Shown here: positions 4,446 through 52,885 of the stretch, in pieces
Numbering within the stretch: position 1 is the first letter of the stretch
How the letters are laid out: each line of letters begins with the position of its first letter
Source: Aliidiomarina iranensis
Lineage (GTDB): Bacteria > Pseudomonadota > Gammaproteobacteria > Enterobacterales > Alteromonadaceae
Length of the DNA: 64,000 nucleotides
Reading direction: 5' to 3'
NCBI RefSeq assembly: GCF_003987135.1
Contig: NZ_PIPJ01000001.1
Coordinates: 124,001 to 188,000, forward strand
The notes under the pieces: model-generated
Told to the model about the DNA's origin: nothing
Seen by the model: the letters and a program-made list of their open reading frames with translations, nothing else
Database searches by the model: none
Position numbers and translations under genes: made by a program

Positions 4446-5183
4446 CTAAAACGCCAAGGTTACTCGGCCAGGGCCAATTATTTTTGCATCGATGAGTTGC
4501 CGATTACGTTGATCACCTGTGTTGATTCGAATCCTAATGGTTTCGTTCAGGCCCCCGCTATCCACCGCAACTCCCTCTCGCTCTATTTGAAACCCTGCAC
4601 CCTCGGCAATGATTTTCACCGCATCACCGCGGCTGATAATCTCAGCCGCTTGTACCATAGTTGCATAAATCGGTTGCCCAGCCCGAAGATTTCGCCGCAC
4701 TACTTGCCCCTCTAATGCGGTAGTTTCCGTTACCGGCGCTTGCCGCATTCGGCCAAGATCGCCTTGGGCTGTGGTCAGCATGGTTGCCGTTAGAATTGTT
4801 CCCGAGGGGATATCCGCTTTAGGCACAAGGAAGCTGCTTATTAGCGATACTTGCGCTTGCACATAACGTACTTGGTTGCCCTGAGCCCCGCAACGCACAC
4901 CAACCGATACACGGCCAGCTACTTCTTGGTTTGCATTAGGGAAAAAAGGTTGTGGGTTTTCACACTCACCGAAGTAAGTGCTACCTGCAAAAACTTCGAT
5001 AGCAATCTCTGATTCGTTTGTATTTCTTTGCTGCACCTGTTGATACAGAAAATTCTCAACCGCATGAGTAACTTGCTCGTTATTGCTTTTGCTATCCGCC
5101 AATGCGGCATTTCCGAGCCCTAACGCACATGCAGTGATAGTGATGAGAGCGATCATAAGCGCTTTTTTTACAATAGCTTGCAT
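4446..5183 (-). CDS. flgA: Flagellar P-ring assembly chaperone FlgA
   Basis: 245 aa from the ATG at 5183, which opens with a classic Sec signal peptide (MQAIVKKALMIALI then a hydrophobic core ending near ALAD). The frame stays open upstream to 5267, but that would bury the signal peptide behind 28 extra residues. The C-terminal SAF domain shows the GTILTATML and LRAGQPIYATMV elements of FlgA. It works in the periplasm to help FlgI form the P ring. It lies upstream of flgM in the same direction, divergent from flgB. Confidence 0.92.
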   Translation of the reverse strand: MQAIVKKALMIALITITACALGLGNAALADSKSNNEQVTHAVENFLYQQVQQRNTNESEIAIEVFAGSTYFGECENPQPFFPNANQEVAGRVSVGVRCGAQGNQVRYVQAQVSLISSFLVPKADIPSGTILTATMLTTAQGDLGRMRQAPVTETTALEGQVVRRNLRAGQPIYATMVQAAEIISRGDAVKIIAEGAGFQIEREGVAVDSGGLNETIRIRINTGDQRNRQLIDAKIIGPGRVTLAF

Positions 5184-5648
5184 CAGATGTTCAGTTCCCA
5201 TTTGGCTACGATATCGATGGCTGCTGGATTGCCTCTTGATTGCGTTGTAAAGGCGATTAATCGCCATTATAAGCCTGCCAATGAGCGGTGAACCGCAGAA
5301 ATAAGCGAAAAAAACAGCTTTTTTCTAGCATTTGCCTCGACAAATATCATCGTAGTCTTAATCCTGCGAAGTTCTCCGAATATCGGCCTGTACAATAAAT
5401 AGGCAGGTATGAAATAGCCAGGCATGAAATAGCCAGGCATGAAATAGCCAGGCATGAATTAACTCGGAATGGCTTGAATTATTGCTCGATGAGGAATTGT
5501 TCGGTGAGGAATAGCTCGGCGGGGAATAGCTCGGTGAGAAATGGCCAGTTGGGTAGTTACAGGTGCGGAGAATGGGAACACTAAAATTAAGAATGGGTTC
5601 GTAACCAAGCGCTAGGTGCGCAATGTTATTGCCATTAAGGGTAGCACC
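5184..5648. promoter_or_regulatory. flgA/flgB divergent control region (465 bp, no gene)
   Basis: The gap between divergent flgA and flgB holds no credible gene. It should carry the FlhDC-dependent (class 2) promoters for both operons. Its right half is occupied by the 15-bp repeat array described separately. I could not fix a -10 or -35 element here with confidence. A reverse-strand open frame over the repeats encodes MPGYF pentapeptides, but this is a product of the 15-bp period and is not called as a gene. Confidence 0.6.
5394..5550. repeat. 15-bp degenerate tandem repeat array in the flgA-flgB gap
   Basis: Three exact copies of ATGAAATAGCCAGGC stand at 5409-5423, 5424-5438 and 5439-5453, preceded by AATAAATAGGCAGGT (5394-5408) and followed by ATGAATTAACTCGGA (5454-5468). 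After a 7-base shift the period resumes: GAATTATTGCTCGAT (5476), GAGGAATTGTTCGGT (5491), GAGGAATAGCTCGGC (5506), GGGGAATAGCTCGGT (5521), GAGAAATGGCCAGTT (5536). That makes about ten units. The shared core is GRAATAGCYNGG. The units near 5400-5453 contain GGCA and GAAATAGC, the two blocks of the enterobacterial FlhDC half-box. Confidence 0.9.
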
Positions 5649-6059
5649 ATGATCGATAAACTAACCGGAACATTGCAGTTTAACCAGCAAGCGTTGAGCC
5701 TTCGTGATCAACGCCAGCAGGTATTAGCTAACAATATTGCGAATGCAGATACGCCAAATTTCAAAGCGCGTGATTTCGATTTCGCCAGTGAGTTGCGCAA
5801 AGCCACCGCACAAACCGGGCCACAGCAAACAGTTCTTGCCCGCACTGCGCCTGGCCATATCGGTGGTAGTGGTTCTAGTTCGGCTTCGGTGGATAACTTG
5901 CAGTATCGGATTCCAGCGCAATCACGGCTCGATGGTAATACCGTGGATATGGACGCTGAACGCAGTAAATTCTTGGATAACTCAGTGCGCTATCAGGCTG
6001 AGCTCACTTTTGTAAACAGCCGAATTAAAGGGTTGCGTTCGGCGATGCAGCCAGAATAA
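5649..6059 (+). CDS. flgB: Flagellar proximal rod protein FlgB
   Basis: 136 aa from the ATG at 5649, chosen because TAAGGG lies 8 bases upstream and the protein then begins in the standard way (MIDKLTGTLQFNQQAL). The N-terminal flagellar rod signature LANNIANADTPNFKARDFDF is present near residues 25-45, and the C-terminal helix pairs with it. FlgB forms the first part of the rod next to the MS ring. It is first in an operon running through at least flgJ. Confidence 0.95.
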   Translation: MIDKLTGTLQFNQQALSLRDQRQQVLANNIANADTPNFKARDFDFASELRKATAQTGPQQTVLARTAPGHIGGSGSSSASVDNLQYRIPAQSRLDGNTVDMDAERSKFLDNSVRYQAELTFVNSRIKGLRSAMQPE

Positions 6060-14041: not shown

Positions 14042-14998
14042 ATGCGTATTAGTACGGTTACGATTTTTGATCAAAACGTATCATCAATGAACCGCCAACA
14101 AGCGGAATTTATGAAAGTAGGCCAACAATTGGCTACTGGACGCCGCGTGGTAACGCCTTCTGATGATCCGCAAGCAGCCTCACGTGCGGTAGGTGTAAAC
14201 CAATCGATTGCCGTTACGCAGCAATACACGGATGCACGCATTAATGCTCGAAATAGTATTTCCCAGCAAGAAAGTGTGTTGAATAGTGTTAACGATATGC
14301 TCACCCGAGCTAAAACCTTGATGATTCAGGCATCAAACGGCACCGTAAGTGAAGTTGATGCGGTTTCTATTTCGGCTGAAATGGAAGGCATCTATGAAGC
14401 CATGATCGGTTTAGGTAACACAACCGATGGTACTGGCCGCTATATCTTTGGTGGCTATCGTGATGGCGAGCCGCCTTTTGCTCGCGCCGCTGATGGTACC
14501 GTTGAGTTTGTGGGTAGCACACAAATGCGCGAAGAGCGGGTTGATAGTGATCGTTTATTGAAAGTTGGCCATACCGGTGCTGATGTGTTTTTAACTGGAT
14601 TAAGCACTGCGAAGCCGGCGGTTGATGGCTCTCCAGCGGAAACCAATTTATTCGCTAGCTTTGAAAAGGCGATTAGCGCATTGCGCGCCGATAAAACAGC
14701 GCTTCCGGATGATCAACGTAAAGATATCTATAGCAATGTCATGCGCGAGTTTGATAACGCCCAAGATAATACTCTAACTAAACGCGCCTCTCTCGGTGCT
14801 CGCCTTAATGAGCTTGATACACTTGATTTAGTAGCAAGTAACCGCAAGTTAGGATACGAGCAACAGCTCTCCGATTTAGTGGATTTAGATTACGCTCAAG
14901 CAGCCTCTGATTACAGTTTACGTATGGTGGGCCTGCAGGCTGCGCAGAAATCTTTCGTAGATATTAAAGGTTTGAGTTTATTTAATTACATTCGCTGA
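14042..14998 (+). CDS. flgL: Hook-filament junction protein FlgL (HAP3)
   Basis: 318 aa from the ATG at 14042 (MRISTVTIFDQNVSSMNRQQ); an upstream in-frame start at 14012 adds ten residues unlike any FlgL, and GAGGAAGG precedes 14042. The flagellin-like N-terminal helices with LATGRRVVTPSDDPQAASRA and the C-terminal YAQAASDYSLRMVGLQAAQKSF helix are clear. FlgL links FlgK to the filament. The stop codon lies in the first unit of a small tandem repeat. Confidence 0.95.
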   Translation: MRISTVTIFDQNVSSMNRQQAEFMKVGQQLATGRRVVTPSDDPQAASRAVGVNQSIAVTQQYTDARINARNSISQQESVLNSVNDMLTRAKTLMIQASNGTVSEVDAVSISAEMEGIYEAMIGLGNTTDGTGRYIFGGYRDGEPPFARAADGTVEFVGSTQMREERVDSDRLLKVGHTGADVFLTGLSTAKPAVDGSPAETNLFASFEKAISALRADKTALPDDQRKDIYSNVMREFDNAQDNTLTKRASLGARLNELDTLDLVASNRKLGYEQQLSDLVDLDYAQAASDYSLRMVGLQAAQKSFVDIKGLSLFNYIR

Positions 14999-15029
14999 CC
15001 AGTATTCGCTGACCAGTATTCGCTGATTA
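14990..15029 (+). repeat. 14-bp tandem repeat over the flgL stop codon
   Basis: ATTCGCTGACCAGT stands at 14990-15003 and exactly again at 15004-15017. A third partial copy begins ATTCGCTGA at 15018. The first unit encodes the last two FlgL residues and the stop; the others lie downstream. Confidence 0.9.
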
Positions 15030-26545: not shown

Positions 26546-26824
26546 GGGCTCTTTGCGCGTTAGAGTTAAGAGTTTTCATTACCCAAATTGCTGGTTAGGG
26601 TATTTTCATGGATAGCATTATCGCTATTTGAATAGAAACCAAACGGGTAAAAAAGCCACTTTTTTTGCTTTATTTAAACCCTTCACTTTGCGTTTTGCTT
26701 GGTAACCTGTGCTCCATCAAAAAAGATTCAGCGGCTTAACAGGCAAGTGGCAAGCAATAATGCATTAATCGCTAGGCCTAGGAAGTTTTCAGAATAATGC
26801 TGGGAACCATGTGAGGATAAAGAA
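26546..26824. promoter_or_regulatory. fliF/fliE divergent control region
   Basis: This 279-bp gap separates divergent fliF and fliE, the classic class 2 pair. It contains CGCTATTT at 26622-26629, which is the reverse complement of the AAATAGCG core of an FlhDC half-box, and GTGGCAAGCAATAATG near 26748, a looser match on the other strand. I could not pair these into a full inverted box, nor fix a -10/-35 pair. Confidence 0.4.
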
Positions 26825-35850: not shown

Positions 35851-36387
35851 TTGTCGAAAAAAAAGCTTCTTGATGAAATGAATCAGGTTCAGTTAGCTAT
35901 TGAGCTAATTGAGCTCGGAGCTCGGCTACAAGTTTTAGAATCTGAAGTTGAACTCAACCGCGGGCGTTTGGTTCGGCTTTACAAAGAGGTTCGGGGCGAA
36001 TCACCACCTAAGGGTTTACTGCCTTTTTCTACTGATTGGTTCATGACCTGGCTACCAAATATTCATTCTTCGCTGTTTTATTCGATTTATCTGAAGTTAA
36101 CGGAGAACGAAAAAATTGACCGCATGACGGCCTTCACTAAGGCTTATCGCCTTTATAATGAACATGTGGATTCTACCGGTGGTGAACAAGTTCTTGGATT
36201 AACAAGGGCTTGGACATTGCTACGGTTTTTTGAAAGTAATATGTTCCAACTCTCGAATTGTAATCAATGCCACCTTCCTTTTGTAAACCATGCCCATACT
36301 CCGGATGACGATTATGTCTGTGGGATTTGCCAACCTCCCTCGCGCGCTGGAAAGCCGGGTAAGAAAAAAGCTGCTCTTAGTAAATAA
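35851..36387 (+). CDS. flhC: Flagellar transcriptional master regulator FlhC
   Basis: 178 aa from a TTG start (35851). Four zinc-binding cysteines stand at C137, C140, C157 and C160, the same spacing as in enterobacterial FlhC. The TRAWTLLRFFESNMFQLSNCNQCHLPFV region is the hallmark. It gives the complex its DNA-binding specificity. It lies 34 bases after flhD and shares its transcript. Confidence 0.95.
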   Translation: MSKKKLLDEMNQVQLAIELIELGARLQVLESEVELNRGRLVRLYKEVRGESPPKGLLPFSTDWFMTWLPNIHSSLFYSIYLKLTENEKIDRMTAFTKAYRLYNEHVDSTGGEQVLGLTRAWTLLRFFESNMFQLSNCNQCHLPFVNHAHTPDDDYVCGICQPPSRAGKPGKKKAALSK

Positions 36388-36400
36388 GCGAAAATATCCC

Positions 36401-36427
36401 TCAAGTTTTCAGAGAAAATGCCGATAG
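36401..36427 (+). promoter_or_regulatory. Sigma-28 promoter for motAB
   Basis: TCAAGTTT (36401-36408), 11 bases, GCCGATAG (36420-36427): 14 of 16 to the FliA consensus. It starts 13 bases after flhC, so motAB can be expressed late even though it follows flhDC. Confidence 0.85.
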
Positions 36428-36523
36428 CTCGTATACGTAAATAGTTTGCGCAAGCCACGCAGATTTTCATATTTTGCGCGTTTGCGGCAACTATAAAAGA
36501 ACGTAATTAATGAGGGGACATTT

Positions 36524-37390
36524 GTGCTCATTGCTATCGGATTTATCATCGTTATTTTCTCTGTGTTTGGCGGCTTTGCCATGGCTGGCGGCGCGTTAGG
36601 CCCTTTATGGCAGCCCTTTGAAGTGTTGATGATCGGTGGGGCTGGTGTGGGTGCTTTTATTGCTGCGAATAATGGCAAAGCGATTAAAGCAACCTTTAAT
36701 GTGGCGAAAAAATTAAAGGCTACCACCAAGTACAATAAAAATGTGTATATGGAGCTGATGTCGGTTCTTTATAAAATACTCAACAAAATGCGCAGAGACG
36801 GCATGCTAGCGGTTGAGCGTGATATTGAAGAGCCGGCAGAAAGTGCGATTTTTCAAGAGCACCCGCTAGTGCTCGAAGATGACATGATTCGTGATTTTCT
36901 CACCGATTATCTACGCCTCATGATTAGCGGTAACATGAATCCGCAAGAACTTGATGAATTGATGTTGCATGAGATCGAATCTTTTGAAACAGAGGCACAT
37001 GTGCCTGCTGACGCCATCGCTAAGGTGGGGGATGCAATGCCTGCTTTCGGTATCGTTGCTGCGGTACTCGGGGTTGTAAAAGCGCTCAGTAGTGCTGATG
37101 CGGGGCCAGATGAAATGGGCGTAATGATTGCTCACGCATTGATTGGTACTTTTCTCGGTATCTTGTTGGGTTACGGTTTTATCAATCCAATTGCCAGCCG
37201 GGTAGAACGGCAAGTAGCGGAAGCAATGAAAGCTTTGCAATGTATTCGCGTAACTTTGTTGGCAAGTATGGGTGGCTACGCACCTCAATTAGCCGTTGAA
37301 TTTGGCCGCAAAGCACTCGATACGGTGGAGCGGCCATCGTTCAATGAACTAGAAGATCATGTTCGTGGTAATAAGCCAGCGGAGTCGTAA
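36524..37390 (+). CDS. motA: Flagellar stator protein MotA
   Basis: 288 aa from a GTG start with GAGGGG upstream. Four transmembrane segments are visible. The cytoplasmic loop has KMRRDGMLAVERDIEEP, carrying the charged residues that touch FliG. DAMPAFGIVAAVLGVVKAL contains the conserved proline of TM3. This is the H+-type MotA form (longer cytoplasmic loop, ~290 aa) rather than the shorter PomA form. It pairs with MotB 2 bases downstream. Confidence 0.96.
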   Translation: MLIAIGFIIVIFSVFGGFAMAGGALGPLWQPFEVLMIGGAGVGAFIAANNGKAIKATFNVAKKLKATTKYNKNVYMELMSVLYKILNKMRRDGMLAVERDIEEPAESAIFQEHPLVLEDDMIRDFLTDYLRLMISGNMNPQELDELMLHEIESFETEAHVPADAIAKVGDAMPAFGIVAAVLGVVKALSSADAGPDEMGVMIAHALIGTFLGILLGYGFINPIASRVERQVAEAMKALQCIRVTLLASMGGYAPQLAVEFGRKALDTVERPSFNELEDHVRGNKPAES

Positions 37391-52760: not shown

Positions 52761-52810
52761 ACGCACATGTTGAAAGAAAACAGCGTTTTTGGGCGCCTCG
52801 CTGGCGAACG

Positions 52811-52885
52811 CTTTAATTGCCAGTGCTGTAATTGCCAGTTCTGTAATGGACAGGGCCTTAATTGTTATCGCTGTAATTTCCAGAG
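52811..52885. repeat. 15-bp tandem repeats at the 3' end of the NarL-type gene
   Basis: Five units of 15 bp: CTTTAATTGCCAGTG (52811), CTGTAATTGCCAGTT (52826), CTGTAATGGACAGGG (52841), CCTTAATTGTTATCG (52856), CTGTAATTTCCAGAG (52871). The last unit encodes LWKLQ, the end of the regulator, on the minus strand; the stop codon lies in the fourth, and the rest is downstream, where the same frame would continue with WQLQ-like words. Confidence 0.85.

Follow-up and report, generated by a model that had tools for sequence, protein, structure and literature searches.

The 15-bp tandem array that lies between flgA and flgB of Aliidiomarina iranensis is probably a lineage-specific minisatellite, one of many unrelated arrays in this genome. 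In its likely history, a 15-bp segment of the flgB leader would have been duplicated in tandem, the older copies would then have drifted, and the genome would have built up many unrelated arrays of 12-22 bp units, mostly outside genes. FlhDC would act from a conserved predicted box upstream of the array, and the array would be transcribed within a flgB leader of about 284 nt, probably without a selected function. As an ordinary kind of repeat, the array illustrates how a partial motif match in a repeat can point to a regulatory platform when a conserved site is next to it. The wider result is weightier: intergenic arrays are several times denser here than in relatives, their units are unrelated to one another, and such a genome would allow the study of minisatellite birth in a bacterium.

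The 15-bp array of the flgA-flgB intergenic region

The window (the whole 64,000-nucleotide stretch of DNA that was analysed) includes two sub-arrays in the flgA-flgB intergenic region, as detected by TRF: (i) 4.1 copies of the 15-bp unit AAATAGCCAGGCATG at 5397-5458 of the plus strand, with 95% matches and a score of 110, and (ii) 3.9 degenerate copies of the 15-bp unit GCTCGGTGAGGAATA at 5484-5542 of the same strand, with 79% matches and a score of 76. The two are separated by a 5-bp slip. The array that the earlier note described is confirmed, and so are its three identical units, which are the copies of ATGAAATAGCCAGGC that begin at 5409, 5424 and 5439. The sequence quoted there as containing both blocks of the FlhDC box is present, although at 5398-5419, one base later than the claimed 5397-5418. 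Identity at a lag of 15 is 0.62 over 5394-5605, compared to 0.16-0.39 at lags not divisible by 15. In TRF, 2000 dinucleotide shuffles of the intergenic region scored no higher than 63 and 40 whole-window shuffles no higher than 58, compared to 110 for the array. The array is single copy in its own genome, where a search with the array as query returned 13 matches, the array alone being significant and the remaining 12 standing at E values of at least 0.5.

By TRF and the shuffles, the array consists of head-to-tail, near-identical units, as does a minisatellite. It resembles the bacterial minisatellites, or VNTRs, in having 15-bp units that are head-to-tail and partly near-identical, in being intergenic and in occurring in one lineage but not in the relatives examined, and differs from them in belonging to an unusual genome-wide excess. 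The staphylococcal STAR elements (PMC3532100) are likewise intergenic direct repeats; however, STAR elements have one sequence across loci, whereas the units of this genome differ from array to array.

Flanking genes and the flgB leader

The array is flanked by flgA (4446-5183, minus strand; Pfam ChapFlgA and SAF) and flgB (5649-6059, plus strand; an ORF with a Flg_bb_rod domain). FlgN, FlgM, FlgA and FlgB are backed by Pfam, FlgB by its rod domain, while the other flagellar gene names are labels from gene order and sequence, given without family searches except for FlhC (PF05280). By FlgA, the nearest relative with a name is a metagenome assembly of Idiomarina sp., at 47% identity. The start chosen for flgA, 5183, is preferred over 5267 because a start at 5267 would overlap a possible flgA -10 hexamer, the TATAAT of the minus strand at 5266-5271, which may have a promoter role for flgA; most relatives have CATTATA at the corresponding position of the alignment.

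A putative -10 hexamer of flgB, TAGTCT, is located at 5353-5358 of the plus strand, with the TA-x-x-x-T form and spacing after the FlhDC box that were read by eye in nine genomes. In all 18 flgB and fliE regions of these genomes, a TAATCT-like hexamer lies 18-20 bp 3' of the box, also as read by eye. The hexamer at 5353-5358 would place the transcript start near 5365 and the array some 30 nt inside the flgB leader (about 30 nt from the start). Codon 2 of flgB lies 319 bp beyond the end of the box, compared to 54-157 bp in eight relatives; in the closest of these, G009, the distance is 124 bp, and the predicted leader is 195 bp longer here. The leader is expected to be unusually long, at about 284 nt. 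Short likenesses between the array and the leaders of G009 and G014 suggest, and fall short of proving, that the array arose locally by slippage or duplication.

A predicted FlhDC box upstream of the array

The FlhDC box is published as AAYGSSNNAAATAGCG-N10-12-inverted (PMC9962212), and this consensus was scanned over the flagellar clusters of nine genomes. A predicted box common to flgA and flgB, with two inverted 16-bp arms and a 10-bp spacer, lies at 5291-5332; it scores 33 of 44, tied for second in the window with a site upstream of fliL, and aligns with boxes in relatives. The scan is imperfect, in that its top match is fliE/fliF or flgA/flgB in eight of the nine genomes, G084 being the exception, and flgA/flgB is within the eight sites listed in seven of the nine (not G009 or G084). 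A matrix was also built from 14 boxes of seven relatives, this genome being left out. It ranks the site at 26642 first in the window (33.0 bits) and that at 5291 second (31.8 bits), ranks that partly reflect orthology, the training set of the matrix having consisted of flgB and fliE boxes. The third site (19.9 bits) is upstream of flhB and the fourth upstream of fliD, neither of which was in the training set. The best site of the window, at 26642-26683 in the gap between fliF and fliE, is itself a strong predicted FlhDC box, with 37 of 44 by the consensus and 33.0 bits by the matrix.

Absence of the array from relatives

The array is missing from the relatives examined. In the flgA-flgB intervals of eight relatives (seven congeners, with the other nine genus genomes outside this set, plus G084 from a different genus), no TRF array was detected at a score of at least 30 and the array unit was not found. 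Identity at a lag of 15 across the interval is 0.21-0.27 in these relatives and 0.43 here. FlhC is kept in seven of the eight array-free relatives and, by tblastn, in the eighth, G084. When the 17 genomes of the genus were searched at the DNA level, the flanks of the array turned up in five relatives and the array in none.

A genome-wide excess of unrelated tandem arrays

The sampled part of this genome, 36 stretches amounting to 720 kb, holds 75 TRF arrays with periods of up to 60 bp, the stretches being hand-chosen, not random, and 11 of the first 16 containing a weak match with the array query. A second sample of 20 stretches, drawn without regard to such matches, has a similar rate (44 arrays in 400 kb). 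The 75 arrays include 41 that are intergenic, 28 that are coding and six at edges. By comparison, six relatives have 32 arrays in 1005 kb, seven of which are intergenic (G009, 21 in 585 kb; G014, 11 in 240 kb; four others, none in 180 kb). The p-value of the difference is 5e-9 for all arrays (75 in 720 kb vs. 32 in 1005 kb) and 7e-10 for intergenic arrays (41 vs. 7). The flagellar clusters of eight relatives, counted apart, have 10 arrays in 398 kb. Runs of at least 12 matching bases at lags of 14-15 number 15 in 384 kb here, compared to two in each of two sets of sequence from relatives (400 kb and 398 kb). The sampled non-coding DNA has approximately 41 intergenic arrays in 82 kb, a rate at which a region of the size of flgA-flgB is expected to hold approximately 0.2 arrays.

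Periods of 12-22 bp account for 63 of the 75 arrays and periods of 13-17 bp for 37, while the units are mutually unrelated: only four of 2775 pairs share at least 10 bases in a row. The flg units share at most seven consecutive bases with the other 75 units, and shuffled units do equally well or better. A dispersed repeat family was rejected, as the array is single copy and the sampled arrays have no common unit. Gene loss as the cause of the excess was likewise set aside for four cases compared by presence alone: PF02739 has one match in each of 17 genomes, and exonuclease I, RecJ and MutS are each present in six of six, alike in this genome and its relatives. It is conceivable, if doubtful, that a process of this lineage keeps making new arrays of about 12-22 bp units, 14-15 bp being commonest, from unrelated local sequence, with the array of the flgB leader as one product. 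One conceivable cause of such a process is a change in the handling of the lagging strand or of end repair. If this is true, arrays that land in leaders such as that of flgB would supply length-variable regulatory regions.

Two further arrays were noted in the window. A second degenerate 15-bp array (52810-52883, 4.9 copies) follows the end of an ORF and has an unrelated unit, with at most five consecutive bases in common with the unit of the first sub-array. A 14-bp array of 2.6 exact copies (14990-15026) is located at the end of the gene labelled flgL.

Alternative readings of the array

The earlier note proposed that the units resemble the FlhDC box and that the array may form a multi-site FlhDC platform. 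The likeness is real but partial, and is to one arm only: the units include AAATAGC, and three of them score 16, 17 and 17 of 22 against one arm of the published consensus. Two single arm-like matches (starts at 5419 and 5434, spanning 5419-5449 of the plus strand, without inverted partners) have 17 of 22 each and 11.9 bits each; the latter level is attained by just 16 arms in the window, and two such units are expected by chance about 0.04 times in the array when identical copies are counted as one. By comparison, the boxes at 5291 and 26642 have arms of 14.4-17.4 bits, and 87 arms of the window score at least 17 with the published consensus. The array consists of direct, not inverted, repeats at a 15-bp step, with no two inverted 16-bp arms comparable to those of the upstream box; its best two-arm site scores 28 of 44 vs. 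33 for that box, and 0.7 bits (rank 115) vs. 31.8 bits. The array is undistinguished as a two-arm site by both the published consensus in nine genomes and the matrix of the relatives. In addition, the array is downstream of the predicted flgB start, its unit is found nowhere else in this genome, and it is not kept upstream of the class 2 promoter in any of the eight relatives, so the platform reading is unlikely. Another form of FlhDC binding, in which directly oriented single arms, repeated along the array, would make it an auxiliary site or one that sequesters FlhDC, is very improbable: the one-arm matches speak for it, and the two-arm scores, the 87 arms of like score, the absence of the unit elsewhere in the genome and the position downstream of the predicted flgB start speak against it. 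By title and abstract opening, the literature searches listed no paper about an array of this kind or about FlhDC of this group.

A possible role, with length variation as in the earlier note's alternative, is the tuning of flgB by leader length, in which steps of 15-nt units would alter the length, RNA folding or translation of the leader such that flagellar output varies between cells. Near-identical adjacent copies are of a kind able to slip, the array sits in the predicted leader, and the leader includes five minimal AUG-codon-stop frames and one frame of 31 codons. The array RNA also folds better than shuffles (z -2.45, 3/200), while folding of the whole leader is unremarkable (z -1.51, 9/100 shuffles). 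By contrast, the array is outside the gene, so that 15-bp steps leave the flgB frame unshifted, no Rfam match was obtained at E values up to 1, and many like arrays occur elsewhere in the genome; this tuning is considered improbable, though it has a better chance than FlhDC binding. Least credible is an origin or fate of the array as a short translated repeat with five codons per unit, of which it would be a remnant or a nucleus. The unit length is a multiple of three and the 31-codon frame, with repeated residues, spans the second sub-array; however, in the frame of the ATG of the first sub-array, each of its three identical units contains a stop, no clear ribosome site was seen by eye, and the periods of many arrays of this genome are not divisible by three. 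The minisatellite reading keeps the preference, with the rank of the two units among the 16 best single arms and the folding of the array RNA counting against it.

FlhDC-type flagella in the genus

The earlier note's view of the flagellar cluster as FlhDC-type is borne out: this genome and seven relatives of the genus have FlhC, and FleQ was not detected in them. The FlhC of the window (35854-36363) matches PF05280, and FlhC is matched in 10 of 17 genus genomes, with eight strong matches (E about 1e-78) and two weak ones (about 5e-15). FleQ is detected in nine of the 17 genomes and in none of the eight with strong FlhC. FlgB divides the 17 genomes as FlhC and FleQ do, with eight close, seven distant and two without a match. 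These distributions reveal an Idiomarina-group lineage with FlhDC-type flagella in a genus whose other members carry FleQ. The two weak FlhC-like matches come from genomes that carry FleQ as well, G006 and G011. Upstream of motA (36387-36524), TTAAGTT and GCCGATA blocks are conserved in the alignment of relatives, and resemble a sigma-28 promoter.
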